Assembly (NCBI RefSeq): GCF_008087665.1
Contig: NZ_CP042912.1
Coordinates: 6,386,001 to 6,450,000 of the forward strand
DNA from: Mariniblastus fucicola
Lineage (GTDB): Bacteria > Planctomycetota > Planctomycetia > Pirellulales > Pirellulaceae
Reading direction: 5' to 3'
Length of the DNA stretch: 64,000 nucleotides
The position numbers were made by a program, and so were the translations under genes. This document shows positions 1,961 through 21,566 of the stretch, in pieces (the stretch's first letter is position 1; each line of letters begins with the position of its first letter). The notes beneath the pieces are model-generated. The model did not search any database, was not told the DNA's origin, and worked only from the letters and a program-made list of their open reading frames with translations.

Positions 1961-2920
1961 TTACCCTTCGCCAGCGTTGATCACCGGTTGGGCGTGTCGA
2001 TCACTACACAGGACGACCAACAGGTTGGACACCATTTGGGCGCGGCTTTTGTCGTCCAGTTCCACAATCTTTTCGCCAGACAATTGATCCAAAGCCATCT
2101 TTACCATGCCCACCGCACCGTCGACGATTTTAGTTCGGGCCGCGACGACCGCCGAAGCTTGTTGACGTTGCAGCATCGCCGCCGCGATCTCCTGCGAGTA
2201 AGCCAGGTGGCTGATGCGAGCTTCGATGACTTGAACGCCAGCGCTATGCAGTCGCTCCTGTATATCGTGTTCAAGCTGCTCGGAAACTTCGGTCGTGCTG
2301 CCTCGCAACGAAACCTCGTGGTCCTCGCTGTCGTACGGGTGTCGCGTCGCGAGAACTCGAAGGGCGGCTTCGCTTTGCACGCGAACAAAGTCTTCATAGT
2401 CGTCGACTTCGAAGAGTGCCTCGGCAGTATCGACAACTTTCCAAACGACAATCGCGGAGATGTCGATCGGATTCCCGTCTCGGTCGTTGACCTTGGAAGG
2501 ACGGCCGGCAGTGCGTGATTTCTGCGACACGACGGTTCCGGCCGCGTCTTTCTTTTCAGGCGTATGGATCGAGCCAGTTTCGAAGTTGCGAATCCGCAAC
2601 GAGATCTTCTTCTTGCTGAAAAACGGATTGACCCAGTAGAAACCTGATTCCTTGAGCGTGCCCTGGTAGTCGCCAAACAGGAGCAACACCCGAGCACTGT
2701 TTGGCTGAATCGCGACCAGTCCGCACAGGACCAGAAAGGCGGACAGAAAAATCACAATCGCCGGAACGATCAGCCATGGAGACTCGTTCCCAACTCCCAA
2801 AATGAACATCAGAACAGAGAGAGCGATCACTCCGAGCATTCCGAGCAACATGCCCCATCCGCTCATCGCTTTGAATGGCTTTTCCAGGATCGACGGTTCT
2901 TTCAACAGATCACTTTTCAT
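1961..2920 (-). CDS. SPFH/band-7 (prohibitin-like) membrane protein
   Basis: The start at 2920 is set by a strong GGAGG seven bases upstream; the frame extends to 3025 but that part lacks a ribosome site. The 319-residue product has two closely spaced N-terminal membrane segments (about residues 20-65), then an SPFH domain (starting with [16 protein letters not shown]) that includes the conserved [16 protein letters not shown] stretch, and a helical C-terminus rich in Ala/Gln/Arg. Proteins of this type form ring or cage assemblies on membrane microdomains and can bind proteases. No NfeD or protease partner is adjacent here, so a specific role cannot be given. Confidence 0.82.
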
Positions 2921-3021
2921 CACACCTCCAGGACATACGGTTTGTTTGCCCTCTGTTCGCCATGCGAATACAAATATTGGAAGAATCGCAGCGGAGGGCA
3001 AAAATGCAACAAAAATGCGGC

Positions 3022-3936
3022 TCAAACGGCTTTTATTGCGAGTCGTGATCGGCGATGCAGTGCGTACAAGTAGACGCTGACTCCGATCCAGACAAAAACG
3101 AATCCGAACAATCGTGTCGAATCAACCGGTTCTCCGAAGGCAAACAGGCCAAGAAAAAACTGAATCGTTGGGCCAATAAATTGCAGCAGCCCAACGGTCG
3201 ACAGCGAAAGATGCTTGACGGCGATCGCGTAAAGAAACAGTGGCGCGATGGTCACGAATCCACTGCACGCCAACAGAATGCTCAACGTCGCGGACTGCGG
3301 AATAACCGATACGCCAACGGAGAAAGTCCGCCACGCGAACCAGGCGATAACGGGCAGAAACATCAAACCTGTTTCCATCGTCAGCCCTTCGGCAGCCGAA
3401 AGCTGTGTCTTCTTTTTGATTAACGAGTACAGTGCAAAAGCCACGGCCACGACCAACCCGATCCAGATATTGCTGTTGGCGGACCAGGTCATAATCGTAA
3501 CGCCGACTGTCGCCAACAGGACTGCGATCCATTGCAGCGGCGTGAGTCTCTCTCTCAAAAACACCACGCCCAGCAGGACAACGATCTGTGGACAAATGTA
3601 GTAGCCGAGACTTGCGTCGATCGCGTGATCGTTGGAAACCGCCCAAACGAACATGAGCCAGTTGACGACGATCGCGACCGCAGCGAAAACCGAAATTCGT
3701 ATCGTTTTCGATTGCCCAAAAAGTCGCTGCTGCAACGAAGGTTGTGCTGGAACGTCGCTGGCCGAATTCCGAGACCTGGCGAGGCGTGAGGCGATTGCCA
3801 GCCAGATCGCCAACACCAAAAATGACCACAGCGCGCGATGAGCAACCAGATCCAGAGGAGCGATGACTCCCTGGAACAGCTTGATATACGCGGGAAAGAT
3901 GCCCCAGAAAACCTGGGCTCCGACCGCGGCAGCCAA
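3022..3936 (-). CDS. rarD: RarD-like EamA permease
   Basis: The protein of about 304 residues has ten hydrophobic segments and the N-terminal pattern of RarD/EamA drug-metabolite transporters ([15 protein letters not shown]...[10 protein letters not shown]). The second half repeats the fold ([24 protein letters not shown]). RarD family members are predicted inner-membrane permeases; the substrate is not established. The first usable start in frame is TTG at 3936, and the frame continues upstream without an ATG, so the start is uncertain by a few residues. It lies 101 bases upstream of the SPFH gene on the same strand. Confidence 0.8.
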
Positions 3937-5108: not shown

Positions 5109-5226
5109 GCACTGATCGGCAGACTTCGGCTCTTCCCCGAATCGTCGAACATTGTTTCGTATTGCCATGGCGGACTTTGCAGCGTTCGCGGAGCGGGGGA
5201 TCGCAGTTGCAGCACGCAAAAAAATT

Positions 5227-5401
5227 CAGTCAATCGAAACGGGGCGACAAGGAATCGAAGAAACGTTTACCTTGCTCTATCCACTGAGCTACAGCCCCAA
5301 ACCGAATCTGCATTCAAGTAGGGCTGGTGGGACTCGAACCCACGACCTTGGGACTAATAATCATGTAGTTCCCCCAGCATTCGCCACGTTTCGATTGACT
5401 G
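5227..5401 (-). ncRNA. Y RNA-like RNA 1 (tRNA-mimic type, YrlA-like)
   Basis: The two ends pair in a near-perfect stem: 5227-5247 with 5381-5401, 20 pairs and one mismatch. The stem is followed on the minus strand by a T7 tract, like an intrinsic terminator. The motif GGCGAATG at the inner stem end fits the bacterial Y RNA consensus GNCGAAN0-1G (from memory). The interior holds a T-arm with a TTCGAGT loop (5327-5343), an acceptor-like stem (5321-5326 with 5292-5297) closed by a small hairpin, the two linker bases TA as in tRNA positions 8-9, and a D-arm with a GG-containing loop (5274-5289). The order is that of a permuted tRNA, as expected for YrlA. It lies downstream of the Ro60 gene. Confidence 0.85.
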
Positions 5402-5422
5402 AATATTTGCGTTCGAACTCCG

Positions 5423-5596
5423 ATTGAAAAAATGACACAACGACAAGGATTGGAGAAACGTAAACCGCGTTCTACCGTTGAACAATCGCTCCAAAGTTGC
5501 TTGGGTGAAGCACTTCAAAGCGAGTGGGATTCGAACCCACACCTCGGGGTTGTGAGCCATGTAGTTTCCCCAGCATTCGCCGCGTCATGGTTCAAT
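5423..5596 (-). ncRNA. Y RNA-like RNA 2 (tRNA-mimic type, YrlA-like)
   Basis: The layout matches RNA 1. The terminal stem includes 11 continuous pairs with GU wobbles (TGACGCGGCGA with TCGTTGTGTCA) plus an outer ATTGAA/TTCAAT helix, with a T6 tract in the 3' arm. The Ro-type motif GGCGAATG is followed by the shared ACTACAT box. The T-arm is GTGGG-TTCGAAT-CCCAC. The acceptor-like stem (TCGCT/AGCGA) continues into a second hairpin (AAGTGCTT with AAGC-A-ACTT). The D-arm is GTTC-AACGGTA-GAAC. A tRNA scan could misread it as a broken tRNA because the T-arm is perfect. The 3' flank (ACGTTTCT...CCTTGTCG) is shared with RNA 1. Confidence 0.84.
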
Positions 5597-5605
5597 ATGA
5601 ATTGT

Positions 5606-5735
5606 AAAAAAGCCGGCAACAAGTTCTGAAAAGACGTAGCTCAGTGTTTCCACTGTCGAGGCTCGAACTCGAACGATCGCTTTCGCAACCGCGCCCTGTC
5701 CAATGTAGTCCTTTCGGCATTTGCCTGGCCGTATT
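5606..5735 (-). ncRNA. Y RNA-like RNA 3 (compact tRNA-mimic)
   Basis: The terminal stem is GCC-A-GGCAA paired with TTGCCGGC, followed directly by a T6 tract on the minus strand (5606-5611), a terminator-like end. Relative to RNA 1 the core pair has changed from G-C to A-T on both strands (GGCGA/TCGCC to GGCAA/TTGCC), which is a compensatory change. The ACTACAT box is present. The T-arm is TCGAG-TTCGAGC-CTCGA. The acceptor-like stem is short and closed by a GAAA tetraloop (CAGTG-GAAA-CACTG). The D-arm is degenerate. The 5' end abuts or slightly overlaps RNA 4, so the two may be processed from one transcript. Confidence 0.72.
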
Positions 5736-5818
5736 GAAGAAGTCGACAAGGAGTCAGTTAGACATCAGGCTTTGGATAAAAAGATGTAGTCCAACCTGCA
5801 TTCGACTTCTGTTTCAAT
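5733..5818 (-). ncRNA. Y RNA-like RNA 4 (minimal type, no tRNA module)
   Basis: The ends pair as ATTGAA-(ACA)-GAAGTCGA with TCGACTTC-TTCAAT, 14 pairs with a three-base bulge. The inner stem end carries GTCGAATG, an exact match to GNCGAANG, then the shared GGACTACAT box, which here pairs with GATGTC to make a small hairpin. CTTGTCG recurs at the 3' side as in RNAs 1 and 2. There is no T-arm, acceptor-like stem or D-arm, so this would be the short class of Y RNA. No terminator of its own is visible. Confidence 0.7.
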
Positions 5819-5823
5819 GAGTC

Positions 5824-5871
5824 AAAAATCGCTCTCCGTCGCGAGTGCTTTTGACTCGGCGACGGAGAGCG
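5824..5871 (-). terminator. Intrinsic terminator of the Ro60 gene
   Basis: An 11-bp GC-rich stem (5830-5840 with 5861-5871, CGCTCTCCGTC/GACGGAGAGCG) has an inner CGAGT/ACTCG extension and is followed on the minus strand by ATTTTT. It lies 23 bases past the Ro60 stop. It separates the mRNA from the Y RNA genes, so those need read-through or their own promoter. Confidence 0.85.
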
Positions 5872-5893
5872 GGAATAACAAATGTGTCTCTGT

Positions 5894-7468
5894 CTAAACT
5901 TCGACACGAGTTTGCTTGATCTGGTTCACCCAAAAATCTTTGGAAGCTTCACCAGACGCCACACTTGAAATCAGGCGAAACACCTGATCACTAAATCCGG
6001 CAACATGAATGATGTCATCACGCTCAATCGTTTGAGATGTCCCATACGGTTGGATGTCGATGCAAATCATTTTTGCCTGTGGGTTGCGAGCCTTGAACGC
6101 TTCCCACTGGGTCATCGTTGCCGTAGCCTGACGACCGCCGCGTCGAGAATCGATCCACGACTCGTTGTCGGAAACGTAAATCACAAGATCGCTCTTGGCC
6201 TTCTTGCGGTTCAGCTCCTTCAACGGCGCGCTGCAATTCGTTCCTCCACCCCAAATGCCTGACAAACGCTTGGCGTTGGTCATCACAGAATCACGAGGAT
6301 TCAACTTGCAATTGGCAACAGAGTTCTCAAACGGCATGACGACCGTACGGTCGTTGACTCGTAGCATCGCCGCAGCCACCAAAGCAGCCACGTCCACGCA
6401 ACGAACTTTCGATGTCGCACCCTTCCGGTAACCCGAAACGCTCGATCCCATGCTGCCCGAAACGTCCGGAAACACGAACACCTGCCCGCTGATCTTTGGT
6501 ACGTTCTCGATCGCAATTTCCATCGCGTCCTGCAGCGCATCTCGCACCTGCGACGGCAACTCGTCGTTCACGTTCATGAACGCCGCCATCAACTGGTACG
6601 GGAAAACACGGGCCTTCTGAATCAGCGAACGATCCCGCAAACGGTTAGCGACCATGTTGACCAACGCACCGTCTTTGAAAACGCCGTGACGCAGAAACGT
6701 GTTCAGGTTCATGCGTGTCATCTGCCACGAGCCGTTGCGCGCGATCTGCTTCCAGTCTCGCTCCTGCAGGTCAACCGAAGTCAACATCTGGAACGGGACG
6801 TCAGGAACGATCCGCTGCTTCGAGTCCGTTGTTCGCTTGAACTTTTCAAACGAGTGGACGACTTCAGGCAGCTTTGACGAATCCACTTCGCGACCGATCA
6901 GGTAACCCAGCATTGCAGCGCGACGATCATCACGCGGCTTTGGGTGAACCATCTTGATTACGTCCGCCAGCGACGGCGACTGACCTACCGAGCCGAAGAA
7001 CAGCTGTTGGTCAGAGCGGGCGTCGATCCAGTTTCGAATCATCCGCTTCGGCAAGCTACCAAGGCTCTTACGACCTACAACGCCGCTTCGCATGATCTGC
7101 ACGAACGTACGGAGCATCTTCGGCGAGTCGATGACCCAATCAAAGATCGCTTCGAACCGTTGTCCGTCTTTTGTTGAAAGCACGGCCAGCAACAGGGCTG
7201 GCATGTCTTTCATGAAAGCAGATTTTCGCGAGTAGACTGCAACTTGAGCCAGGAACTCCGGGTCCACGGTTTCACTTAGATGCAGAATCTGATCCAGCTG
7301 CGTTTCCGCAGTCGCGTAGAAAGTGCCATTGAGGCAACCGGTTGCCGCGAACTGAGCCAGCTGGTGCTGTGCATCAAGCTGGTACGCTCGGCCACCGGCT
7401 TCGTTTGTGAACGTAGCCACGGGCGCTTTGTTGCCTCGATGGCTTTCAAAGAGTGATCGGTTTGCCAT
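5894..7468 (-). CDS. rsr: Ro60/Rsr TROVE-domain RNA-binding ring protein
   Basis: The protein is 524 residues from the ATG at 7468, which has GGAGG 12 bases upstream; the open frame to 7747 is untranslated by this reading. An N-terminal TROVE HEAT-repeat ring (about residues 1-320) precedes a von Willebrand A domain with an intact MIDAS (FPDVSGSMGSS near residue 335, and a later GGGTN and SDN). Ro60 proteins form a ring that holds misfolded RNAs in its hole and Y RNAs on its outer face. In Deinococcus, Y RNA tethers Rsr to PNPase for structured-RNA decay. The four Y-RNA-like genes immediately downstream on the same strand make the assignment strong. Confidence 0.95.
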   Translation of the reverse strand: MANRSLFESHRGNKAPVATFTNEAGGRAYQLDAQHQLAQFAATGCLNGTFYATAETQLDQILHLSETVDPEFLAQVAVYSRKSAFMKDMPALLLAVLSTKDGQRFEAIFDWVIDSPKMLRTFVQIMRSGVVGRKSLGSLPKRMIRNWIDARSDQQLFFGSVGQSPSLADVIKMVHPKPRDDRRAAMLGYLIGREVDSSKLPEVVHSFEKFKRTTDSKQRIVPDVPFQMLTSVDLQERDWKQIARNGSWQMTRMNLNTFLRHGVFKDGALVNMVANRLRDRSLIQKARVFPYQLMAAFMNVNDELPSQVRDALQDAMEIAIENVPKISGQVFVFPDVSGSMGSSVSGYRKGATSKVRCVDVAALVAAAMLRVNDRTVVMPFENSVANCKLNPRDSVMTNAKRLSGIWGGGTNCSAPLKELNRKKAKSDLVIYVSDNESWIDSRRGGRQATATMTQWEAFKARNPQAKMICIDIQPYGTSQTIERDDIIHVAGFSDQVFRLISSVASGEASKDFWVNQIKQTRVEV

Positions 7469-7890
7469 TTCTAATTCGTACCTCCAAAAATTCATTTCTG
7501 AACAGTACAGTTGCCAACTCCCAACAAAAGTTCGCGGTTCATTGACACGAGCATTCAAGTTTGGCTCAGGACCGATTCCTGCCAGCCGCCCCGGGACCTC
7601 ATGCGATGGCAGACTGCTCTTCTGTGATCGCGATTGGAATCCGGCTTCGATTTTGACCAAGAGGTTCTTCCGCGGTGCCGAATCGAGCGAAGCCTGAACG
7701 CGATGGATGAGGGACGAAAAGACAAACTTGGTTCGAAGGCGAACCATTTGGACCGTTCGGGCTCCAGATTGCAGAGGGAAACACGGTTTTTACCGGTTCC
7801 CAAAAGCGAAAAATCCGGCCTTGCCGGAGCGAAATTCTTGACCTAAACTGTCGCGTCTATTTGGAGCATTCGTGTTCCAAACCGCTACAT
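7469..7890. other. Intergenic region upstream of Ro60 and tRNA-Asn
   Basis: About 420 bases between the divergent Ro60 and tRNA-Asn genes. The Ro60 ribosome site (GGAGG) lies at its left edge. A TTGACC at about 7838 could be a -35 for the tRNA, but the matching -10 is poor. A frame continues open through this region in phase with Ro60 but lacks a ribosome site and family similarity, so it is not called. Confidence 0.4.
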
Positions 7891-7963
7891 TCCCCTGTAG
7901 CTCAGTTGGTAGAGCAACGGACTGTTAATCCGTTTGTCGCAGGTTCGAGCCCTGCCGGGGGAG
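7891..7963 (+). tRNA. tRNA-Asn(GTT)
   Basis: Complete cloverleaf: acceptor TCCCCTG/CGGGGGA, TA linker, D-arm GCTC-AGTTGGTA-GAGC, anticodon arm ACGGA-CTGTTAA-TCCGT with anticodon GTT, T-arm GCAGG-TTCGAGC-CCTGC and discriminator G. CCA is not encoded. The 3' part from 7918 is duplicated at 38373, which marks it as the integration site of the neighbouring element. Confidence 0.97.
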
Positions 7964-7968
7964 CTTCA
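7918..7968 (+). repeat. Left attachment site (attL), 51-bp repeat in tRNA-Asn
   Basis: Covers the anticodon 3' half, T-arm, acceptor 3' strand and five bases beyond; identical to 38373-38423. It lies inside the integrase reading frame, where it encodes a PPAGLEPATNGLTV segment near the C-terminus. Confidence 0.92.
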
Positions 7969-8000
7969 GCACTGACTCGCAAATCGGTGCAAGAATTCGC

Positions 8001-8029
8001 AAAGACCCCAGTTTTCTGGGGTCTTTTTT
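8001..8029 (+). terminator. Intrinsic terminator after tRNA-Asn
   Basis: GACCCCAG (8004-8011), TTTT loop, CTGGGGTC (8016-8023), then T6. It is on the tRNA strand 38 bases past the gene and inside the element, within the antisense of the integrase C-terminus, so the element supplies a terminator for the interrupted tRNA transcript. Confidence 0.8.
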
Positions 8030-8101
8030 CTTTGGTGTTCTCTGCTGTTTCTTCAGCTTCATCGCAACCGGTCGCAGCAGCATACTCCTCAATCGCAGCA
8101 A

Positions 8102-8122
8102 GTTTGCTGTGTATTTGCTGTG
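8102..8122 (+). repeat. 21-bp direct repeat, left copy (possible integrase arm site)
   Basis: The sequence GTTTGCTGTGTATTTGCTGT plus one more G is identical to 38305-38325 in the same orientation. Itself made of two TTTGCTGTG-like halves, it lies 134 bases inside attL, where arm-type integrase or excisionase sites are expected. Function is inferred. Confidence 0.5.
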
Positions 8123-8703
8123 GACCCGCATTGAGGGCCTCAACAGCGGATGCTTCCGCCCCGTCCAACAGATGGCCGTAAGTGTTCAGTGTCAAAGTTG
8201 GTGTGGAATGCCGCATGACTGTTTGAACTGTTTTAACGTCCACTCCAGCAATGATCAGCCAAGCGCCGCAGGTATGTCGCAGTGCGTGGAAATCAAGTTT
8301 CAATCCGCTGTCGTTTTCGTATTTGAGGAAGTCAGATTTTACACGTTCTTTCCGCTTTTCTTCGTCGATGCCTTCCTCGTTGATCCAGCTGGCCCTGGCC
8401 GATTCAAGATCGTCCTTCAGCATCCTCGCCACATTGGCTGATGCGGGCATTTTGAATATCTCAGCATTGGGATTGAGATTGTTCACGTGTTTGAAGAGTT
8501 CCGTGGCCAGCTCTTTGGAAAGGTACTGTTTGGCGGCTTTCCCATTCTTGGTGATATCGCCCTCGGCACAAATGGAGACTCTTCCGTTCATATTCCGCAG
8601 GTCGGACTTCCGCAGCTTTCGAAGTTCGCCAGACCGGTATCCAGTCTCGATGGCGGTCCAATAAAGCAACTTGCGAGCAGGTCCCGTCATGTTCCAGCGA
8701 TAC

Positions 8704-8739
8704 TTGCCGTTGCTGGTTGCCGTTGCTGGTTGCCGTTGC
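8704..8739. repeat. 13-bp tandem repeat causing the integrase frameshift
   Basis: TTGCCGTTGCTGG occurs twice in tandem (8704-8716, 8717-8729) followed by a partial third copy (8730-8739). Thirteen is not a multiple of three, so each gain or loss of a unit shifts the integrase frame. Confidence 0.93.
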
Positions 8740-9417
8740 CAACCAGAACCATTCTTCCCTGGTCGCCATGCGCCTTTCATGACGGCGATCCTTGGTCGGT
8801 GAGGGCTTTTTGATGCCTTTGGTAGGATTGCTGGAGATGACGCCAGTATCAACCAGATGATTGAAAAATGTTCTCATCGCTGCGATGTGCTTCTGAATCG
8901 TCCGATGTGATTTTCCGTTCTGAACCAACGAATTGATGTAACCTCCAACTCGAACAGAATCAGCATCTGAAACCACGCTTACCTTCTGATTCTCGATGAA
9001 GGAATTCAAGATGGAAACCTGCTCTTCGATATGCTTGTTCGTCAGCTTGGCATTTTCCATTTTCATGCGATAGGCCCCCACATGCTCCTGAAGGGGGCTG
9101 TTCAAGTTTGCAACTAAAGATCCCTGCTTGGCAACTGAGACACCCGTCTTGATTTTGAGAGCCTCAGACTCGCGTCTGTTGGCTTCAGCAAGAGCTGTCT
9201 GTTTGCAAGTTGTTCCGCTTGAGAGGTCCTTCCAACGGCCACGCTCATCCTTGAATCGCATCCGCCATTTGGCACCACGTTTCGGCTTGCCCGTTTCTTT
9301 GTCATTGGGTTTGTAAACTGAGGCCATTCCGGCTTTTCTCCTTTCGTTACGATTCGTTGTTCATGATCGAATTATCGGCTCTTCAATAGGTTGCGTACGT
9401 CGTGTTCACCAAACTAG

Positions 9418-12796: not shown

Positions 12797-15700
12797 TTAT
12801 TGGAGGTTGTCTAGGATTTCGCTGACCAATACTTCAGGTGGGAATGGAACCTGTGCGAACACAAGGCCTGACTCTCCTTCGAGTTTGGCCAACAAATGTC
12901 CCTTGCCCAGAAGCTTTTCAGCTCCCTTGTCACCAAGGGAAACTTCGGAAGTGCCCTCTGAATCGACCCGCAAGATAAGTCGATTACCAAGGTTCGCTCG
13001 CAATTGCATTGGCATCACGTTTACGTCTGGCCTTTGAGCGGCAAAGACCAAGTGGATGCCAGCCGCGCGGGCCTTCACGCCAAGACGCTGTACTGTGGAG
13101 GAAACATGATCTTTGTATTCGTCGATCAGCATCCATTCAGCGAACTCGTCATGTATCAGCCAAATCGTTGCCATACGATCCTCTGACTGAGCCTTCTTGT
13201 TAAACGCGGTAATGTTGGCTGCCTTGGCTTGTCGAAAGGCCGTGTACCTTTCGTCCATTAGCGTCACAAGCTCTTGAAGTTTCGAGATTGCTTGCTGCTC
13301 TTCGACAATCAGCCCTCCATCCAGATGCGGGACATCCTCAAACTGGAAATAGTCGACTCCTTGTTTTGGGTCGATCAGGATCAACTTGGCCTCATCCGGA
13401 GTGTTGGTCGCTACGATGCCGAGAATTAGGTTTTGAATCAGAACGGATTTTCCACTTCCCGTAGAGCCCGCAATGAGTGTATGAGGCGCGTGCTTCTTGT
13501 TCGGGTCTAGATATAGAATCGAACCATCGTTCTCGCGAACGGCGATCGCAATGTTCTGATTTCCGTTCGTGCGTTCGGGGCTCCATCTCTTCCAAACTGA
13601 GGCAAGATTGACGACTTCTCGCGTTGGCCGCTCGATTGCGATAGATACTACGCCCGGCTCTGGTTGAACAGAAATGATATTGAGTCCATGAGTGGTCAAG
13701 AACTCAGATCGTCGCTTCGAAACCTGATCGACGGTTAAATGTGCACTGCCTGCAAACTTCAGCAAAGCAGCGTTTGGCGTCATTTTGGATTCAAGCAGCT
13801 TTGCTTGCAGGTTAAACTGTTGCAGGCCAGTCTTAATGCCTTTCACCGTTTTCTTCAGCCATTGTTCATCGGCCTCAGATGTTTGGCGTTCTTCAGCGTT
13901 TTGTTCAACGATTGACGCAAGCTTGTCGTGCGCCCAGCGTGTGTTGTCAACGGTCAATTCACTTTCTAGATGCACGGCATTGTTAACTTGCCCTTCGCTT
14001 TCTTGCTGACTAGTAACTTCCGCCTTTACTTCCTTTCCATCATCGACGCTGTCTACATCTGTTTCTGGTTCGACCGACACTGGGCGGGTCACAGTATTCT
14101 CTTTCCTTTCAATCGAAGTTGGCGGCTTGAACTCATGTGGGTTCAAGGAAGGAGGGAAATCAAAACTGCGATTTCGAGCTTCCCCAGGCGACGCGTCGTT
14201 CCAGTATGCGATCACCAAGTCCCTTAGTTCTTTTCTCGCAAACACTTCTTGGTAGCAACCTTCAACCTCTGCGACCTCAAATGAATTCGAGTCGTCAAAT
14301 TCTGGCGAGTGGACGAACACATGAGAGTAGCCTCGAAGCATGATCTTGCAGTTGCCGGAGCGTATAGCATGTCGCCATTTCCCAACGTCAGGAGACTGGC
14401 CAGCGGCGAATTGAACGCCATCCAGCACTAAATCAGAAAGCCTTGCGAGCCAGAGTTCACGATCCAACCGATCCGGATTCCCAAAAAGGGCATCATGAAT
14501 TCGTCTAACGGTATCGCGAAGTTGTTTCTGACTCTCCTTCTTCTTTTTGGACAAGTTTGCTTCATCAATATACTTCGCTTCCGAAACGACGATCGAAAGC
14601 AGCAACTCCCCGTTCTCATTTTCTTCAGGGCTAACAATCATCAAGTCAGCGATTTGCTCTTCCCGTTGCCCAAGCCATTCGGCATAGTCATCTAAGAAGT
14701 ACCAACCGAAATAGCGATCGCCATCCAATTCGTTGCGAATCAGAAAGCGGCTCAGAACCACGCCCATCAACTCAAAAGCGCTGCGTCCCCGTTTTGCAGC
14801 ACGTAATGCGAGATCACCTGAAATTGAATTAGCATCAGCGATCATTTTGTCTGCAAGTTTGTCGAAGTCCTCGTCGCCTAATTCGAGAGTGAGCTTCCTC
14901 AGCCGACTCTTTAGCATCGTTTTTAAAAGTCCAGAACTTGCCTTGGACGAAATAACAAGGTTTCGGCCCTGCGTTGCGGACTGCTTATAGCGAATGATTC
15001 GCACGCTTTGGTTCTGAAGCTGTCGACGATCGAGAAGCTCGTCATAGTTCACAACCCAATTTGCCAGGTTGTGGGTCTCTTCAAAAATCTGTGACGTTTC
15101 TCGATCGTTGAAGTCGAGTTGTCTTACTGGGAGTAGGCGTGTTCCGTCTTTGCCGTCCCAGTCACCTTTTTTGAAAGTCGTGATCGCAGTTAGGAATGCC
15201 CATGTTTCTTCACTTTGAACAGGACAACACAAATAAACTACTGATTTCAAATCGTCTTTGGCTGCAGGGCGTCGACGGGACCATCGTGGTGGAACCAATT
15301 CATCAAGTGGAACAGGCTTGTATGTTTCTGGATACCACTCCAATTGAGCATGGCGAGCGATGACATCTTGAGAAAACGAAACGTCATGTGGACATCCGTC
15401 CTTCGGATCAGGCGGAGCGGCTTGGTCAGCAAGAATGCCAATTCGAAGTCTGGCAAGAAAATCTTCAGTGGCTTCACTTGGACTATATGAGTCAACATCT
15501 TCATCCGCCGACTCGATAATTTCTTGATAAAGATGCCGCAATCTTTTGGGTTTAGTATGCCGCAAAATAATCTGGCAGTGCACTTCTTCGTCGTCTTCGT
15601 GCAGTGAACCAATCTTGTTTACAACCGCCTGCGGTAACCGAGATGAATCACTGTTGAATAGAACGAGCGAGAGGTTTGCTCGCTCATGAGGGTGCAACTT

Positions 15701-18040
15701 CACGTATTGGTTCAGAAGCTCCATGACGCGGGTTGCAGCCGGCGCAGGATTCTCGTTCGTCGCCGCCACTCGTTTCTTTTCCAAAATTGGAGGCTCATGA
15801 AGGCTGTAGTCGCCAACGGTGTCGGTAACCGTTAAAACGTGGGCCTCATTCTCGATCCATCCAACGACGACTTCAGGATAGAAAGGATGCTCAAGTTCTC
15901 GAATCATCTCTTTGAAATACAAACGCTGATCGCCGAACTCAACATTCTCTTCAAAGAGAAGCCGTTTTATTATGTCGCTAACCAGTTTGGCCTTCCTTGC
16001 GATGGCCGCCATTCGGAGGGGATGCCATGGAGCGACAACAACTGTTGGGATATCCGCGTTAATCGCAACTGAGCCAATCTCCAGAATTGGCCTTAGTAGT
16101 AGCTGACGATTTGAGTCTCCCTTGGCTTCACTGCAAATTGTCGTCAAAAGCTGCGAATAGAACGTCAGCTGCGTTGAAAGCGACTTGGCGGAGACACCTG
16201 ACTCTGTAAAGCCATTGATTGCATTCGTGTATTCAGCGGCAAACTGCTCGAACTGATCGTTCAGCTTTGCACGGACTTCATCTGAAACCAGCCCTTCGTT
16301 CGCAGCATGCTCAAGGTTCGCTTTCCAAATTAATGCAATGTCATGCTTTTTCTTATACGCCGAAACGAACGACCCCTTATTCCGATCGTATGAGGCGACG
16401 AACGTTTTAACATTGGACAAATCAACCGCTTGGTAAATCCCTTTGGAACTGATTGGATCAAGATCCGTTTCACATCTAACGAGCGGATTTTTCTTGAGCC
16501 GTTTCCAGTCCGCCACAAACTCACTTGCTACTGAATTCGGATCATAAAACCAAACCAATTGTGTTGAAGAGTTTTCCACCGTCCCTTCGGTAGTCTCTGT
16601 TGTAACTTCAAGAATAAATTTGAGTTTAAGAGCCTTCTTTGCCTGCGAACGATTCAGCCGAATCTTTTTGTTGCCACTCCACTCCGTTACGAGTTCTGGA
16701 AAATCAAACAATTTGCCAACGTTCCATCTGACGCCCTTCCCAAGCAATGACTTTAGTCCAGCATAGCGGTTGGCAAAAAATGCTCCTGCATGAATGTTGA
16801 CATCGCGGAGTTCGCGTTTTGTCGCACTGTCACAGCGAATTAGTAGTGTTCGCTTCTTGGCGTCGGTGATTTGATTGAAGAGCGATTCAATACTTGCTGC
16901 TAGTCCAACAACAAAATCAGTACACTCTCTTGGGCGACCGTAAATGAACTTATCCCATGCAGAGCGAAGCTTTCGATCCTCTTTGAGCTCGTTTCGATGA
17001 GACTCGTAAAAAGCTTGGTCTTCCTCCGTAGGATCGTTGGCCTTTGGGCGCTTGGAAAGCAATTCCAAATAGTCTGAGTCGTCTTCGCTCAGGAGGTCCG
17101 GACTTCGTTCGTCGTAGAAAAGCGTTGTCACTTCCCCGAGGTTGAGCTTTACGCGTCGCAAACCGTCGAACAATGGTCTTATCTCTTGCCACTCGCAATT
17201 GGCAAGTGCCTCCGCTTCTGCATTCCAACCGCTTGAAGCAGAAATGAATTGTTGAATTACCTCATGATGTTCGTCACTAATTTCGGGTTTAGCTTTCTCG
17301 AATGCTTTTACAAGATCCTCTTCGCTGAGCAAAAGCTGAGAGGTATTCTGTTTCTCCAAGAAGCATGCATTCTTTCGATAGACACGATTGAACTCGCGTT
17401 GCCAAACTGACTTGTGAGTGCGGCGTCCTTCTTTGATGCGATCAAAGAAAGTTGAGTCTTTAGGGAAATGCAACGCCGGCATGGCTTGCCCCAAAGCGAC
17501 GCCGATCGGAAGACCTTCGTTCTCGTTCAATTCTCGAGTGAGAACGATGTACGACGCTAATCGCTCCAACGCGACAACACGCAGGTCACAAAGCCCAGCA
17601 ATCGCTTTTTCCCACCACTTTTTCTGTTCGTCGGTAACCGACAAGCCTTCACTTGCGCAAGCCACCCACAAATCGGGGCTTGCGGTTAACTCGTCGGCTC
17701 CGATACGCACAAATTCTTTCAACGACTGCTCTTCGTCGTCGCCGGTGCTCGCGACCAGCAATATCGGTAACTCACAATTGCAATTCCGATAGTATGTCGC
17801 TGGGTTAGTTGTAAGAACTTGAGCCGGCAACCCAGAATCGCCGACAAAGTCCTTGTTCAACTTTAGCTCGACAATATCCTTCAAAGTCTCATGTTGAAGC
17901 ACTGCTTTTGCAATTGCGATAGTTTGCTGTGCTGACAAATGGTCAATCATCAGCCTGGCCGCGCCTTGGTCGCTTTCTTTTTCGATCGACGAATCGAGAT
18001 GACGCGTAAAAACATCGCCAATTAGTTCGACAGAATTCAT
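12797..18040 (-). CDS. sspH: SspH/DptH-like protein with C-terminal FtsK ATPase
   Basis: The start at 18040 has GGAGG seven bases upstream and overlaps the preceding stop by four bases (ATGA). The 1747-residue protein has no recognisable motif over most of its length. It ends in an FtsK/HerA-type translocase domain: Walker A AGSTGSGKS near residue 1520, Walker B LILIDPKQG, sensor region WLIHDEFAEW and AAQRPDVNVMP. Third gene of a three-gene operon opposite an SspB/SspC pair, it fits the restriction module SspFGH, reported to damage DNA that lacks phosphorothioate marks, or its DptFGH counterpart. The letter assignment rests on order, size and the FtsK domain. Confidence 0.72.
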   Translation of the reverse strand: MNSVELIGDVFTRHLDSSIEKESDQGAARLMIDHLSAQQTIAIAKAVLQHETLKDIVELKLNKDFVGDSGLPAQVLTTNPATYYRNCNCELPILLVASTGDDEEQSLKEFVRIGADELTASPDLWVACASEGLSVTDEQKKWWEKAIAGLCDLRVVALERLASYIVLTRELNENEGLPIGVALGQAMPALHFPKDSTFFDRIKEGRRTHKSVWQREFNRVYRKNACFLEKQNTSQLLLSEEDLVKAFEKAKPEISDEHHEVIQQFISASSGWNAEAEALANCEWQEIRPLFDGLRRVKLNLGEVTTLFYDERSPDLLSEDDSDYLELLSKRPKANDPTEEDQAFYESHRNELKEDRKLRSAWDKFIYGRPRECTDFVVGLAASIESLFNQITDAKKRTLLIRCDSATKRELRDVNIHAGAFFANRYAGLKSLLGKGVRWNVGKLFDFPELVTEWSGNKKIRLNRSQAKKALKLKFILEVTTETTEGTVENSSTQLVWFYDPNSVASEFVADWKRLKKNPLVRCETDLDPISSKGIYQAVDLSNVKTFVASYDRNKGSFVSAYKKKHDIALIWKANLEHAANEGLVSDEVRAKLNDQFEQFAAEYTNAINGFTESGVSAKSLSTQLTFYSQLLTTICSEAKGDSNRQLLLRPILEIGSVAINADIPTVVVAPWHPLRMAAIARKAKLVSDIIKRLLFEENVEFGDQRLYFKEMIRELEHPFYPEVVVGWIENEAHVLTVTDTVGDYSLHEPPILEKKRVAATNENPAPAATRVMELLNQYVKLHPHERANLSLVLFNSDSSRLPQAVVNKIGSLHEDDEEVHCQIILRHTKPKRLRHLYQEIIESADEDVDSYSPSEATEDFLARLRIGILADQAAPPDPKDGCPHDVSFSQDVIARHAQLEWYPETYKPVPLDELVPPRWSRRRPAAKDDLKSVVYLCCPVQSEETWAFLTAITTFKKGDWDGKDGTRLLPVRQLDFNDRETSQIFEETHNLANWVVNYDELLDRRQLQNQSVRIIRYKQSATQGRNLVISSKASSGLLKTMLKSRLRKLTLELGDEDFDKLADKMIADANSISGDLALRAAKRGRSAFELMGVVLSRFLIRNELDGDRYFGWYFLDDYAEWLGQREEQIADLMIVSPEENENGELLLSIVVSEAKYIDEANLSKKKKESQKQLRDTVRRIHDALFGNPDRLDRELWLARLSDLVLDGVQFAAGQSPDVGKWRHAIRSGNCKIMLRGYSHVFVHSPEFDDSNSFEVAEVEGCYQEVFARKELRDLVIAYWNDASPGEARNRSFDFPPSLNPHEFKPPTSIERKENTVTRPVSVEPETDVDSVDDGKEVKAEVTSQQESEGQVNNAVHLESELTVDNTRWAHDKLASIVEQNAEERQTSEADEQWLKKTVKGIKTGLQQFNLQAKLLESKMTPNAALLKFAGSAHLTVDQVSKRRSEFLTTHGLNIISVQPEPGVVSIAIERPTREVVNLASVWKRWSPERTNGNQNIAIAVRENDGSILYLDPNKKHAPHTLIAGSTGSGKSVLIQNLILGIVATNTPDEAKLILIDPKQGVDYFQFEDVPHLDGGLIVEEQQAISKLQELVTLMDERYTAFRQAKAANITAFNKKAQSEDRMATIWLIHDEFAEWMLIDEYKDHVSSTVQRLGVKARAAGIHLVFAAQRPDVNVMPMQLRANLGNRLILRVDSEGTSEVSLGDKGAEKLLGKGHLLAKLEGESGLVFAQVPFPPEVLVSEILDNLQ

Positions 18041-19584
18041 TGACTTACCTCCGCATATGGATTCAAGACATAGGCACACGCATCGGAGAGTCGCTTCAAC
18101 ATTCCGAGACTACTCAAACGTTGCTCCAGACGGCTTGAGTTAGATTGAAACGCCTTGTTGTCAAAGTCGCTGTCGTTCATAACGATCTTGGCCTCACGTT
18201 CGCCAAGAACAATTCCGTACCGATCAAACAGCCGCTTTAAGAAAACCTTAAACTCCATTCGACCGTGAACATTCGCGAGGATCAGTGCCTTTAAGAGCGA
18301 ATCATTAGGTGCATATCGGAGCTTGTTCGTTCCACGTTTAGAAATCAGGCCAATTGATCGGCCATAAGCACGATGTACGTTGCCAGCGTGTTGACGATGA
18401 CGCGACAAAGCGCTTTGGCGAAGGTGCTTGACCATTAAATCTGGATCGTGCGCCCCTTCGTAATCGCCTTCATCGCGTGGCCATGCGATCTCGCGAATCA
18501 ATATTTCTTTGCACTGTGGAAACGCGTCAGTTGCAGCCTTCGCTTTATTCCATTCGTCTGTGCTTACTAGATCGCCTACAAACTTGGAAACGGCGATCGA
18601 AGATAGCTGACTATTTCGCTGGTAACTTTGAATCGAAAGTTCACGTACCAGAGTCTTTCTTGGTGCAACGATTTCGCAAATCATTACTGGGCGATCACCG
18701 CCAGCAACCTGCCACGCTACTTCGAGCTGGTAAAGCATGACGTGCATTGCGGCCAGCAATGTGACATGAGGATAGCCATCGAACCTTGGTAAACCCAACT
18801 CAAACAAGTGCAAGATGTCTTCACCGGCACGATCAAAGGATGCGTGTTGCTTGTATGGGAGATAGCAACTGTTTCGGTGACTTGTGTTGGGTTGCTCAGT
18901 TTTTTGCAATTGGGAAACGAGAGAATTCCATGGGTTTTTGTTCGTCACAACCTTGCAGAAGTGTTGCTTTAGTTCACTGGCCGACTTCGATCGCGACAAC
19001 ATTAGATAGAGCAGCTCCCCAGTTCGTCCAAAGTTGATGTATTCACTAGTCGGCTTATCTTGAGTTGAAATTCCTACGTCTTCATATAGACAGTCTTCGC
19101 CAAACGGAAAAATGAATCTCGACGACCATCTGCGGTTCGATTCGCTTTCCACCGTCGCAGTACGGATCATCGCAATTAACTTCGAAAATTTTCCGAAGTC
19201 AGAGAAACGTTCGCCGACATAATCGAAATCACGCTCGATGACTCCCCTTGCATTGCTCTTCATCCACTCTGACCATTTCTCCCATGCCCGGCTATTGTCC
19301 GGATACCTATCTAAAATGAATGGCATGATCTGGTTGTTGTAGAGAATGTTTCTCAGCATCATCCGTTGATAGGGATTGAAAATCAGCGGGTAGTACTTGC
19401 CGTTTTCGTCAAACAGGTTGCCTTCGCGATTGGCAGACTCAGCGATACCAAGTAGCTCCAGAAAAATTAGCCAAGGGCTTTGGTTGTCCCAAATGCGATG
19501 CCCCCAGATTCGCTCATCAATCCAGTAATTGATTCTTTTGTGATCCTGCCAAGGCAGTTCAATATCGTTCTTGAGCACGCTCAT
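18037..19584 (-). CDS. sspG: SspG/DptG-like protein
   Basis: A 515-residue soluble protein that overlaps both neighbours by four bases, so translation is coupled. I see no nuclease or ATPase motif. The N-terminus is rich in aromatic residues (RINYWIDERIWGHRIWDNQSPWL) and the C-terminus has a small helical, possibly winged-helix, part. The name is given by position between an SspF-like P-loop ATPase and an FtsK-type protein. It probably forms a complex with them, acting on unmodified invading DNA. Function of the individual subunit is not known to me. Confidence 0.6.
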   Translation of the reverse strand: MSVLKNDIELPWQDHKRINYWIDERIWGHRIWDNQSPWLIFLELLGIAESANREGNLFDENGKYYPLIFNPYQRMMLRNILYNNQIMPFILDRYPDNSRAWEKWSEWMKSNARGVIERDFDYVGERFSDFGKFSKLIAMIRTATVESESNRRWSSRFIFPFGEDCLYEDVGISTQDKPTSEYINFGRTGELLYLMLSRSKSASELKQHFCKVVTNKNPWNSLVSQLQKTEQPNTSHRNSCYLPYKQHASFDRAGEDILHLFELGLPRFDGYPHVTLLAAMHVMLYQLEVAWQVAGGDRPVMICEIVAPRKTLVRELSIQSYQRNSQLSSIAVSKFVGDLVSTDEWNKAKAATDAFPQCKEILIREIAWPRDEGDYEGAHDPDLMVKHLRQSALSRHRQHAGNVHRAYGRSIGLISKRGTNKLRYAPNDSLLKALILANVHGRMEFKVFLKRLFDRYGIVLGEREAKIVMNDSDFDNKAFQSNSSRLEQRLSSLGMLKRLSDACAYVLNPYAEVSQ

Positions 19585-21464
19585 TCTCCCAGCTCCACAA
19601 ATTCTTCAAACGGGTGCCCAAGCTCGTCCAGTTCAAGTAATCGGAAGACCATGCTGTCCTCTTCGATACCCAATTCCTCTCGCCGTTGTTGAGATGCGGT
19701 TAGGATTCGCGACTTGAAAGACAAGATGTCTTCATGGCACTCTTTGGAGAAACTCCCAGGCAAGACACCGTCCGCTACCCTACTAAGGAATTCGAAACGC
19801 GTAAGCGTCAGGTGTAGATCGACCCAGATCTTTTCGGTCAACGAAACCCTTAGAATCGGAAAGCCGGTTTCGTCTCCTAAAATTTCTATGCACTCAGTCA
19901 TTCGTTTGGCAACTGAAACGCGATCTTCAAGGATGCAACTCACCTTCGAAGCTGAACCCGACAGTCCCGTAGCCAAAAGCAATTCACGATCAGAAGAAAC
20001 CAGCATTCCGACAAAGACGCGATTGAGCCCTCTCGTAAGCCGAGCCAACACTCCTTTCTCAATACGTTGACCATCCCGCAACTTCTTGACAATCTTGCTC
20101 AAATACTCGCCAGCAAAGCTGAATACCGTCAACTGCCATGGAGATAATTCATCTTCCATCGCATCTGGAATCTTGAAGAACAATCCACGCCGTTGCGACA
20201 CTAGCAATTCAAGGAAAACTTCCGTTTCCTCACCGCTTTCATCATCTCCTTCGATGTATTGCTCTTGGGCTGCAAGGTAAGTGCTATCCGCTCCATAAAA
20301 GGGGTCGTTAGAGAGAAACTGGTCGAAGTACTTTTGCAGCTCGACATCCGAATGACCATATATCAGCAGGTTGTCAAAACGATTCGACGTTTCATGTCCA
20401 ATTCTGAATCGTCCAAGATAGTTGAAAATGTCCAAGGACTTCCGGCGGTATCGCGTGAGGTTTCCGCCAAAAATATTGTTATAGATACTGGCTTTTGCAA
20501 TTTGATTGGACGCAATCACCCGTGGAACATCGACAGCTCTTAAAAGACGATCATTAACTTTCTTGCCTTCAGCCTCTCTGCCCGCAAATCCCAAAACCGA
20601 ATTCGCCAGCAATAACAAAAGGCGTCGAATAGAAAAATGGACTTCGTTGTGGTCGCACAATTCGAGTAGATCCCGAAGTCGATTTTTTACATGATCTTCT
20701 TTGATCAACTCGTAGTTTCGACGGATTGGGCAGTTATCACCGAACAAAGCGGTTTCAGATTCAGCCTCGTCATAGCAAAACTGCCAACCTTCGTGATTTA
20801 CAAATGCGTCTAGCGAGCGGTCGAATAGCTCTGCAGATGAAATCCGACTCAGATTGAATAGTTTCAACCTACTGCCAACTTTTTCTTGTTGGTTGTTGAA
20901 CAACAAGTCTTCCAAGAGACGGCCAGTATTGTCGACGTCATCGTCGCTTCGATTCAGCCGAGCCCACGTGTCAACGAGCTGGCCATCGTTCGCGGCGATA
21001 AGAAAAACACTGTTCGAATCGTCATCGAAGATCGCGTGCGAGAAAAACTCAAGCAAGTCAGTCTTGGTGCCAAAACCGCCGCTTTCGCCATTCTCTGGAA
21101 GACCCGTCAGATCTCGAACAATATGAACAGTCGTTTCCTTACCGGCAATTTCGGTGTCGATATGGAAATAGACTCTGTCGGTCTCCCAGTCTTCGTTGCT
21201 TCCGCCAAGCTTGTTCCAAACGATACGGCAAAGATGGGTTTTTCCATCCCCAGCCGTTCCCGTAAGAATGACTGATGTTCGGCCGCTTGCCTTCGGCTCA
21301 AACAGCGCCAGAAGTTCTTTTTCCTTCGGGTGCTCAAAAAGTAGCGGTTTCATTTTGCTTCGAGCTGCAGAACGACGAATATGCTCGTCGTACATATTGT
21401 CGTTGCGTGCGATAGGGCCATACTGTCGGAGAAAACGAATCCACTTTTCAGCTTTACCTGCCAT
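19581..21464 (-). CDS. sspF: SspF/DptF-like P-loop ATPase
   Basis: A 627-residue protein with Walker A GTAGDGKT at residues 69-76, a Walker-B-like VFLIAANDGQLVD at about 155 and a sensor-like arginine region afterwards, in the style of STAND/AAA-like ATPases. The rest is helical. First gene of the minus-strand operon, divergent from sspB across about 100 bases, it fits the ATPase subunit of SspFGH or DptFGH. The ATP-binding site looks intact. No clear Shine-Dalgarno precedes 21464. Confidence 0.68.
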   Translation of the reverse strand: MAGKAEKWIRFLRQYGPIARNDNMYDEHIRRSAARSKMKPLLFEHPKEKELLALFEPKASGRTSVILTGTAGDGKTHLCRIVWNKLGGSNEDWETDRVYFHIDTEIAGKETTVHIVRDLTGLPENGESGGFGTKTDLLEFFSHAIFDDDSNSVFLIAANDGQLVDTWARLNRSDDDVDNTGRLLEDLLFNNQQEKVGSRLKLFNLSRISSAELFDRSLDAFVNHEGWQFCYDEAESETALFGDNCPIRRNYELIKEDHVKNRLRDLLELCDHNEVHFSIRRLLLLLANSVLGFAGREAEGKKVNDRLLRAVDVPRVIASNQIAKASIYNNIFGGNLTRYRRKSLDIFNYLGRFRIGHETSNRFDNLLIYGHSDVELQKYFDQFLSNDPFYGADSTYLAAQEQYIEGDDESGEETEVFLELLVSQRRGLFFKIPDAMEDELSPWQLTVFSFAGEYLSKIVKKLRDGQRIEKGVLARLTRGLNRVFVGMLVSSDRELLLATGLSGSASKVSCILEDRVSVAKRMTECIEILGDETGFPILRVSLTEKIWVDLHLTLTRFEFLSRVADGVLPGSFSKECHEDILSFKSRILTASQQRREELGIEEDSMVFRLLELDELGHPFEEFVELGE

Positions 21465-21566
21465 TTACAACTCAGCGGGAGGTTTGAGGGAGGAGAACAG
21501 AAGAAGAAAACTTGTTAGTATAAGGGCCACATCACCGCGACACGAGAGTTGGCCAGGAATTTGAAT

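Follow-up and report, generated by a model that had tools for sequence, protein, structure and literature searches.

The window examined here is a 64,000-nucleotide stretch of the genome of the planctomycete Mariniblastus fucicola (contig NZ_CP042912.1, forward-strand positions 6,386,001 to 6,450,000). On its minus strand it encodes an orthologue of Ro60 (rsr), and directly after this gene, on the same strand, four tandem structured elements run from about position 5810 down to 5226; individual coordinates are collected in Table 1. Pfam searches of the Ro60 protein, computed on a reference with one extra 5′ codon, returned a vWA_Ro60 match and a partial TROVE match (E = 9.8e-8), the solved structure nearest by sequence is that of the Ro sixty-related protein RSR (2nvo; E = 2.5e-22), and a genome search found a TROVE match in this gene only. 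The first element begins 83 nt 3′ of the Ro60 stop codon, and the helix ends of neighboring elements, with RNA ends set from predicted folds, are separated by 7, 22, and 29 nt. A first-pass annotation of the sequence had proposed four Y RNA-like genes directly downstream of a TROVE gene and on its strand, a proposal on which matches to the bacterial Y RNA family YrlA, helix covariation, strand linkage, and conservation all agree.

Comparison of the sequences and predicted folds shows that RNA1 to RNA4, numbered away from Ro60, share one anatomy: a covarying basal helix (helix 1; CGA-AUG / (C)UUG-UCG), an internal loop, a second helix (helix 2) carrying a mostly conserved G·U pair, a UACAU box, and a variable apical module. 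In minimum-free-energy (MFE) folds, the ends of each of the four RNAs pair with one another, as had been supposed at first pass, and all four have both the end stem with its GNCGAANG / UUGNCG motif and, as the shared internal box, RACUACAU. From RNA1 to RNA4 the 5′ motifs read GUCGAAUG, GGCAAAUG, GGCGAAUG, and GGCGAAUG and their 3′ partners UUGUCGAC, UUGUUGCC, UUGUCGUU, and UUGUCGCC; RNA2, with a compensated A-U pair, is therefore the member with the single compensated change that had been noticed earlier. The apical modules set the RNAs apart. RNA1 comprises a basal helix, a second helix, and a small loop, with no tRNA module, and because its match to Rfam YrlB (RF02565) was not significant (19.4 bits; E = 0.57; gathering score, 97), it is classed here simply as short and Y RNA-like (S-type). 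RNA2 lacks a standard D-arm, matches YrlA weakly (26.7 bits; E = 0.0023), and is directly followed by six T residues. RNA3 and RNA4, each with a T-run directly after it, are of the YrlA type (L-type): in full-length alignment to the YrlA model, both present a T-arm, a capped acceptor stem, and a D-arm in permuted order, the layout that the first-pass annotation had attributed to two of the RNAs and that is absent from RNA1. RNA4 has the longest basal stem, about 21 bp (16 + 5 pairs), together with a canonical D-arm and T-arm. At least two of the window RNAs, and probably three, carry such a cut-and-rejoined tRNA look-alike.

Standard pipelines leave the array blank, as had been foreseen, because neither ARAGORN, with the sequence in native order, nor Rfam at gathering thresholds reports anything there; the sole Rfam match in the window at those thresholds is the tRNA at 7891. 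At an E-value threshold, partial and weak matches of the array to tmRNA and permuted tmRNA models appear, and being no more than that they led us to reject a tmRNA identity. The covariance-model search recommended at first pass placed RNA3 and RNA4 in the YrlA family (Table 1), below the gathering score. Both share with YrlA (RF02553) the full succession of basal helix, CGAAUGC, second helix ending in ACUAC, T-arm, capped acceptor, D-arm, and CUUGUCG, as well as a full-length model match and a gene adjoining Ro60. They differ in their lower score and in a capping loop about 20 nt longer than that of the model; the window also differs in holding tandem RNAs, of which RNA1 has no tRNA module and RNA2 probably has another permutation point. 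Y RNAs of the YrlA type beside bacterial Ro60 are known biology, of which the array is a further member; Chen et al. reportedly described both their location and their tRNA mimicry in 2014. Vertebrate Y RNAs, too, pair their ends in a stem with a conserved motif, which binds Ro60; we know of no tRNA mimicry among them.

Table 1. Features in and near the array, with P-type Y RNA examples from related loci (L numbers; positions within each locus). Fold z-scores were taken against dinucleotide shuffles.
Feature	Position	Strand	Evidence
RNA1, short Y RNA-like RNA (S-type)	~5738-5810	-	fold z -2.80
RNA2, Y RNA with putative T-arm and GAAA-capped acceptor-like stem	5611-5730	-	fold z -2.25
RNA3, YrlA-type (L-type) Y RNA, permuted tRNA mimic	5432-5588	-	YrlA 55.7 bits, E 9.4e-12; fold z -3.90
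RNA4, YrlA-type (L-type) Y RNA	5226-5402	-	YrlA 57.7 bits, E 2.5e-12; fold z -6.53
Ro60 orthologue (rsr), 524 aa	5894..7468	-	Pfam vWA_Ro60 E 2.4e-15
GC-rich hairpin between Ro60 stop and RNA1	5830..5871	-	stretch 5820-5893 folds at -33.8 kcal/mol, z -6.54
tRNA-Asn	7891-7964	+	
Phage-type integrase open reading frame (ORF)	7902-8852	-	
SspH, SspG, SspF (-) and SspB, SspC (+) matches	12797-25944	-/+	PADLOC
SPFH/Band-7 gene	1961-3025	-	
P-type example, L099	11072-11206		
P-type example, L128	3813-3948		
P-type example, L118	8144-8281		
P-type example, L052	580-729		

The shared elements are rare in the genome, and their helices covary. A pattern combining core motif and box (AATGC-N5-9-RAYTACAT) matched the 6.57-Mb genome seven times, four of these being the four RNAs, and the reversed control matched once. 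With R1, a covariance model of L-type RNAs trained on 17 RNAs that include RNA3 and RNA4 and leave out RNA2, the top three places in the genome were RNA4 (127.8 bits), RNA3 (103.7 bits), and RNA2 (41.9 bits), followed by one at 24.0 bits; RNA3 and RNA4 match by construction, because both are in the training set. Across 41 RNAs from 12 loci, standard pairs occupy 309/328 cognate positions of helix 1 and 313/328 of helix 2, counts that are favored because pairing was a criterion in choosing the 3′ anchors and that leave out 5 of 46 records with misassigned or unclear 3′ arms (two from L040, one from L038, and two from L046). Shuffling the 3′ arms within loci gave means of 242.6 (helix 1) and 272.7 (helix 2), and none of 10,000 shuffles was as high as the cognate count. 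Among the 17 L-type RNAs, RNAalifold recovered both helices, the T-arm, the acceptor, and the D-arm unaided. There, 18 of 30 pairs changed on both sides, 97.8% of pairs were standard, none of 500 shuffles reached the observed level on any of the five measures, and sliding the structure along the alignment reduced standard pairs to 39 to 54%.

The stems are likewise conserved, with covariation, in related Ro60 loci, so the proposal withstood the check on stem conservation that had been named at first pass as able to refute it. In a sample of 296 genomes from the same order, 55 encode a Ro60 relative and 52 have a YrlA match at a cut-off of E ≤ 1e-5; such matches occur in 43/55 Ro60-positive and 9/241 Ro60-negative genomes (Fisher p = 8.5e-32, uncorrected for kinship), and 63 of the 74 YrlA matches listed fall within 4 kb of Ro60. 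A YrlA match passes the gathering score in just five of the 296 genomes (e.g., G107, from Adhaeretor mobilis, at 74.7) although 52 match at the E-value cut-off, which marks a gap in the reach of the Rfam threshold. Among the 13 nearest Ro60 loci (L037 to L049), all of the same order and with aligned members 53 to 63% identical, a script found two to five such RNAs on the strand of Ro60 in 12, downstream of the gene in L037 to L045 and upstream in L046 to L048; in L049, which is truncated by a contig end, the signature is absent. The usual downstream order is a short RNA, an RNA with a T-arm and capped acceptor and without a D-arm, and then one to three YrlA types. The short RNA comes first after Ro60 in L037 to L039 and L041 to L045 also, and the form with a T-arm and capped acceptor alone, a fourth form, takes second position in L037 and L039 to L043.

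Linkage to Ro60 holds in a wider sample of 160 Ro60 loci, 80 from bacterial genomes and 80 viral, the latter comprising 75 distinct sequences. On the strand of Ro60 the core signature was counted 324 times, and on the opposite strand never, compared to five occurrences on both strands of 2.11 Mb of Markov-shuffled sequence; in some phage loci the signature RNAs lie kilobases from Ro60. The signature search is incomplete, as further RNAs can be made out by eye in the spacers of L038 and L045. In a distant Ro60 group (43 to 48% identity), the exact signature was not found because the core motif differs, being GCGACUG/UUCGUCGCC-like in the copies inspected. Of 19 loci scanned in this group (L050 to L068, Rfam E-value threshold), 18 have YrlA-like RNAs upstream of Ro60, the exception being L062. 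Planctomycete Y RNA sets of this size had been thought little described at first pass, and a search of the open-licence literature indeed found no paper combining Ro60, Y RNA, and Planctomycetes, but the size itself is common: four or five such RNAs are present in 6/13 of the nearest loci (by script), and four or more signatures in 27/80 genome loci (4 to 8) and 3/80 viral loci. The idea that a set of four is exceptional was rejected on the count for the genome loci.

Two minor observations concern the acceptor mimics of the L-type relatives. By eye, the acceptor capping loop of one L-type RNA holds one or more GC-rich repeat-like units in L037 (2516-2723), L040 (~2400-2700), and L045 (3862-4143), the insert in L040 being at least 200 nt, so this loop tolerates insertion. 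Several L-type acceptor mimics (L037, L039, L041, L042, L043, and L045) have a G3·U70-like pair with A73 (GGGGCCG/CGGCTCCA or CGGCTCTA), a combination that is the identity signature of tRNA-Ala and that RNA4 of the window does not have.

In the L-type, the Y stem occupies the anticodon region of the tRNA, which is the known YrlA design. Related loci also hold a second arrangement, the P-type, in which the order is UACAU-GG..AGAGC, hairpin, T-arm, acceptor, short loop, acceptor, UAGCUCAGU, and second helix, with the Y stem splitting a canonical D-arm (GCUCAGU|GGAUAGAGC). Most copies, judged by eye, have an anticodon loop that is either shortened or closed off by a tetraloop; the exceptions are L142, L176, L205, and L058, which could hold loops of 7 to 8 nt, and L131, with a longer loop. 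Clear copies occur in L099, L102, L114, L118, L120, L128, L129, L131, L132, L142, and L176, whose hosts belong to Planctomycetota, Acidobacteriota, Verrucomicrobiota, or groups within them, and model R2, run on 58 Ro60 loci, adds L052, L053, L058, and the viral contig L205. A strict P-type finder reported eight copies in the 80 genome loci, none in the 80 viral loci, and one in 33 same-order loci, with none on the opposite strand or in shuffles. The P-type alignment (A5) includes L114, L120, and L131, which fail the rules of the finder and were added by eye, and L118, whose 3′ end was set by hand; L052 was left out (basal helix, 4/8). RNAalifold paired the split D-stem unaided in 11 P-type copies, and as its four pairs never vary, no covariation comes from it. 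A rough classifier of RNA types, not used as evidence, labeled 90 L, 70 S, 29 T-arm-only, and 6 odd among 245 signatures (4 in the window and 241 in the 80 loci), left 50 unassigned, and mislabeled RNA3 of the window as lacking a D-arm.

When the modules were rearranged in silico into tRNA order, ARAGORN called a tRNA in 7/9 P-type copies, in 66/83 L-type copies, and in RNA3 and RNA4 of the window, compared to 0/9 P-type copies in native order and 0/9 after shuffling. The shuffle control covers the P-type alone, and 7 of 90 L-labeled RNAs were dropped, the script having found no D-arm start. These calls support the view that P-type and L-type sequences are both permuted tRNA forms; the test cannot separate the two types, because the L-type controls scored too. 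For RNA2 of the window, a P-type assignment is somewhat favored: it would be a permuted tRNA mimic of the D-loop-insertion kind, in reduced form, whose anticodon-arm hairpin has a GAAA cap. The alternative is a plain T-arm/acceptor RNA like the second RNA of L037 and L039 to L043, and we prefer the P-type because of the extra GAAA hairpin and the alignment of RNA2 with L099 and L118, which covers an CGAGUUCGA..CUCG T-arm, resembling the one in L099, as well as GNAA-type caps. R2, built without RNA2, makes it the best match in the window (45.9 bits; E = 1.7e-9), a small difference from the 41.9 bits given by R1, and the P-type fold costs 1.0 kcal/mol (-42.3 compared to an MFE of -43.3 kcal/mol). 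Against the P-type stand a T-arm pair probability of 0.11 in the ensemble, a D-stem of merely three pairs (by eye), and the lack of an ARAGORN call for rearranged RNA2. With a P-type permutation and a tandem set of mixed types, the array and its relatives form a variant of known Y RNA arrays.

The best explanation of the region, and a probable one, is four noncoding Y RNA genes in tandem whose products would serve the Ro60 ring encoded upstream. The basal helix would bind Ro60, as in other Y RNAs. With just 7 to 29 nt between neighboring helix ends, some or all of the array is probably transcribed as a longer precursor before processing. The tRNA-like modules may act as docking handles for tRNA-binding partners, such as PNPase or enzymes of tRNA modification or repair, which would allow a single Ro60 ring to be gated and tethered in several ways for the degradation or quality control of structured RNAs, chiefly tRNA. 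A precedent is RYPER, the complex of Ro60 (Rsr), Y RNA, and PNPase in Deinococcus radiodurans, which, like YrlA, is described in excerpts of PMC8394870, PMC8058203, and PMC7790460; according to the first of these, DusA and TruB modify YrlA, whose tRNA-like part is bound by PNPase. The window resembles that system in having a Ro60 orthologue with adjoining Y RNA genes and differs in having four Y RNAs of differing apical types, PNPase tethering here being only putative. We consider a RYPER-like tether or gate, in which several Y RNAs can be exchanged, the most likely mechanism. Because the Y RNA types recur in similar order with their own covarying helices, a division of labor is suggested in which they do different jobs on one ring. 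This bears on the role of bacterial Ro60 and Y RNAs beyond D. radiodurans, a question raised in an excerpt of PMC7790460.

Several observations weigh against this interpretation. All YrlA scores in the window fall below the gathering score of 69, RNA3 and RNA4 at 55.7 and 57.7 bits and RNA2 and RNA1 far below, this score being a curation cut-off and not a biological feature. The MFE folds miss some comparative helices, namely helix 2 in RNA4 and the T-arm in RNA2. In the same-order sample, 12/55 Ro60-positive genomes have no YrlA match at the cut-off and nine genomes have a YrlA match with no Ro60 detected, and the signature is absent from 6/80 genome loci and 43/80 viral loci that have Ro60. 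A sigma-70 scan of 5150-7600 found no promoter-like site upstream of RNA1 and two such sites overall compared to 1.1 expected, which is chance level; the sole minus-strand site in the array (5630-5601; 9/12 matches) ends about 13 nt before RNA3, which would have its own promoter if the site is real. Finally, an excerpt of PMC7790460 states that the functions of bacterial Ro60 and Y RNAs have been studied only in D. radiodurans.

The genes around related Ro60 loci point to tRNA as the client. In the 80 bacterial loci, tRNA genes near Ro60 lie 270 times on its strand and 9 times opposite, and in the 80 viral loci (L179 to L258) the counts are 457 and 0. At least three tRNA genes are present in 20/80 bacterial and 34/80 viral loci, the remaining 60/80 bacterial loci having fewer; loci with same-strand tRNA genes include L104, L114, L120, L132, L133, L135, L141, L142, and L159, with up to 31 tRNAs (L141). 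The order in Adhaeretor mobilis (L104) is rtcR (opposite strand), ro60, Y RNAs, rtcB, an ORF without a Pfam match, rtcA, and 23 tRNAs, and by hand count 29 of the 74 tRNA matches in that genome fall within this cluster. L133 has a HEPN gene and an intein-bearing RtcB near Ro60 and its Y RNAs. The window locus has no tRNA array, and no Y signature was found in the stretches surrounding the tRNA clusters of the host at 2.66, 2.75, and 5.02 Mb. It is the second tRNA permutation together with the strand-locked tRNA genes that indicates tRNA as a client. In the open-licence literature, nothing was found that pairs "Ro60" with "tRNA array" or "circularly permuted tRNA" with "Y RNA," and the one paper that joins "tRNA gene clusters" with "TROVE" is on archaeal tRNA clusters; ROT/TROVE proteins are noted in jumbo phages in an excerpt of PMC7824862. 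Two things may be new: P-type Y RNAs, in which the D-loop of a permuted tRNA accommodates the Y stem, and the same-strand tRNA genes at Ro60/Y RNA loci. Excerpts of PMC10272220 describe the trn operon of Anabaena PCC 7120, a stress-induced tRNA array that shares a repressor with rtcB, and name a slipin gene among the genes de-repressed along with rtcB. That operon parallels the tRNA arrays near Ro60, not the window, and neither "Y RNA" nor "TROVE" occurs in the text of PMC10272220.

An alternative hypothesis, which we consider possible at somewhat less than even strength, is that the Y RNAs act in RNA repair with RtcB and RtcA, or as a decoy for an anticodon nuclease, rather than with PNPase. 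RtcB lies near Ro60 and Y RNAs in two related loci examined, L104 (with rtcR and rtcA) and L133 (with HEPN), and an excerpt of PMC7790460 proposes both tRNA decay and competition with an anticodon nuclease. The rsr-yrlBA-rtcBA RNA repair operon of Salmonella likewise combines Ro60 with more than one Y RNA, and L104, which has rtcR, rtcB, and rtcA too, adds a tRNA array that goes unmentioned for Salmonella in the excerpted text of PMC7790460. In contrast, no RtcB or RtcR gene was found beside the window locus; the RtcB genes of the host lie at 3.86 and 0.73 Mb, far from Ro60 at 6.39 Mb, and no RtcR was found in the host genome (RtcA was not searched). We tentatively suggest a broader scheme that would join these elements. 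One Y scaffold would carry two tRNA permutations, opened either in the anticodon region or within the D-loop, there between AGU and GG, and some arrays would contain both. The arrays, often accompanied by same-strand tRNA sets and at least once placed in an rtcR-ro60-rtcB-rtcA locus, could form a tRNA-surveillance and replacement kit induced by tRNA damage, each Y RNA showing another tRNA face.

The gap between Ro60 and RNA1 contains a GC-rich hairpin (Table 1), and a stable hairpin is predicted in this gap in nine relatives too (L037 to L045; -25 to -83 kcal/mol), the deepest fold belonging to the longest gap. The window hairpin is followed by AUUUUU, and by eye the relatives have no comparable T-run; it is perhaps a terminator, or a processing or mRNA-stability element. 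The hairpin, the position of the array on the same strand 83 nt after the Ro60 stop, and the T-runs after RNA2 to RNA4 would suit a role of the elements solely in cis, as part of the 3′ untranslated region of the Ro60 mRNA, in stability or termination. We think this unlikely, as the RNAs lie upstream of Ro60 in L046 to L048 and in the distant Ro60 group and kilobases away in some phage loci, and tRNA mimicry would be needless for action in cis.

In some algae and archaea, circularly permuted tRNA genes are processed to working tRNAs. The ARAGORN calls on rearranged P-type and L-type copies, RNA3 and RNA4 included, could be taken to mean that the same happens here, with the Y stem removed. This is very unlikely: the Y stems are strongly conserved, many copies have acceptor ends closed by short loops (GAAA, GCAA), the anticodon loop is, by eye, shortened or sealed in most P-type copies and replaced by the Y stem in the L-type, and rearranged RNA2 gets no call.

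Least credible is that the elements are broken tRNA remnants left by mobile elements near a tRNA-Asn integration site, a view that the tRNA-like T-arm and D-arm sequences, the partial tmRNA and permuted tmRNA matches, and the tRNA-Asn with an integrase ORF about 0.4 kb past the Ro60 start might recommend and that we rejected because conserved, covarying Y stems flank the modules, helices 1 and 2 occur in no tRNA, the RNA types keep a similar order across relatives, strand linkage to Ro60 extends over 160 loci, and neither the array nor nine P-type relatives yield a tRNA call in native order.

The neighborhood of the array holds other features of minor interest. On the strand opposite the tRNA-Asn gene, the end of the phage-type integrase ORF overlaps it, and this spot just past the Ro60 start is perhaps an island integration site. 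Across it from Ro60 lie genes with PADLOC matches to Ssp proteins, names that we take to denote a phosphorothioate-type defense system. On the other side, 2.2 kb past the array and on the strand of Ro60, is an SPFH/Band-7 gene; SPFH modules were reportedly named together with RNA repair by Burroughs and Aravind in 2016.

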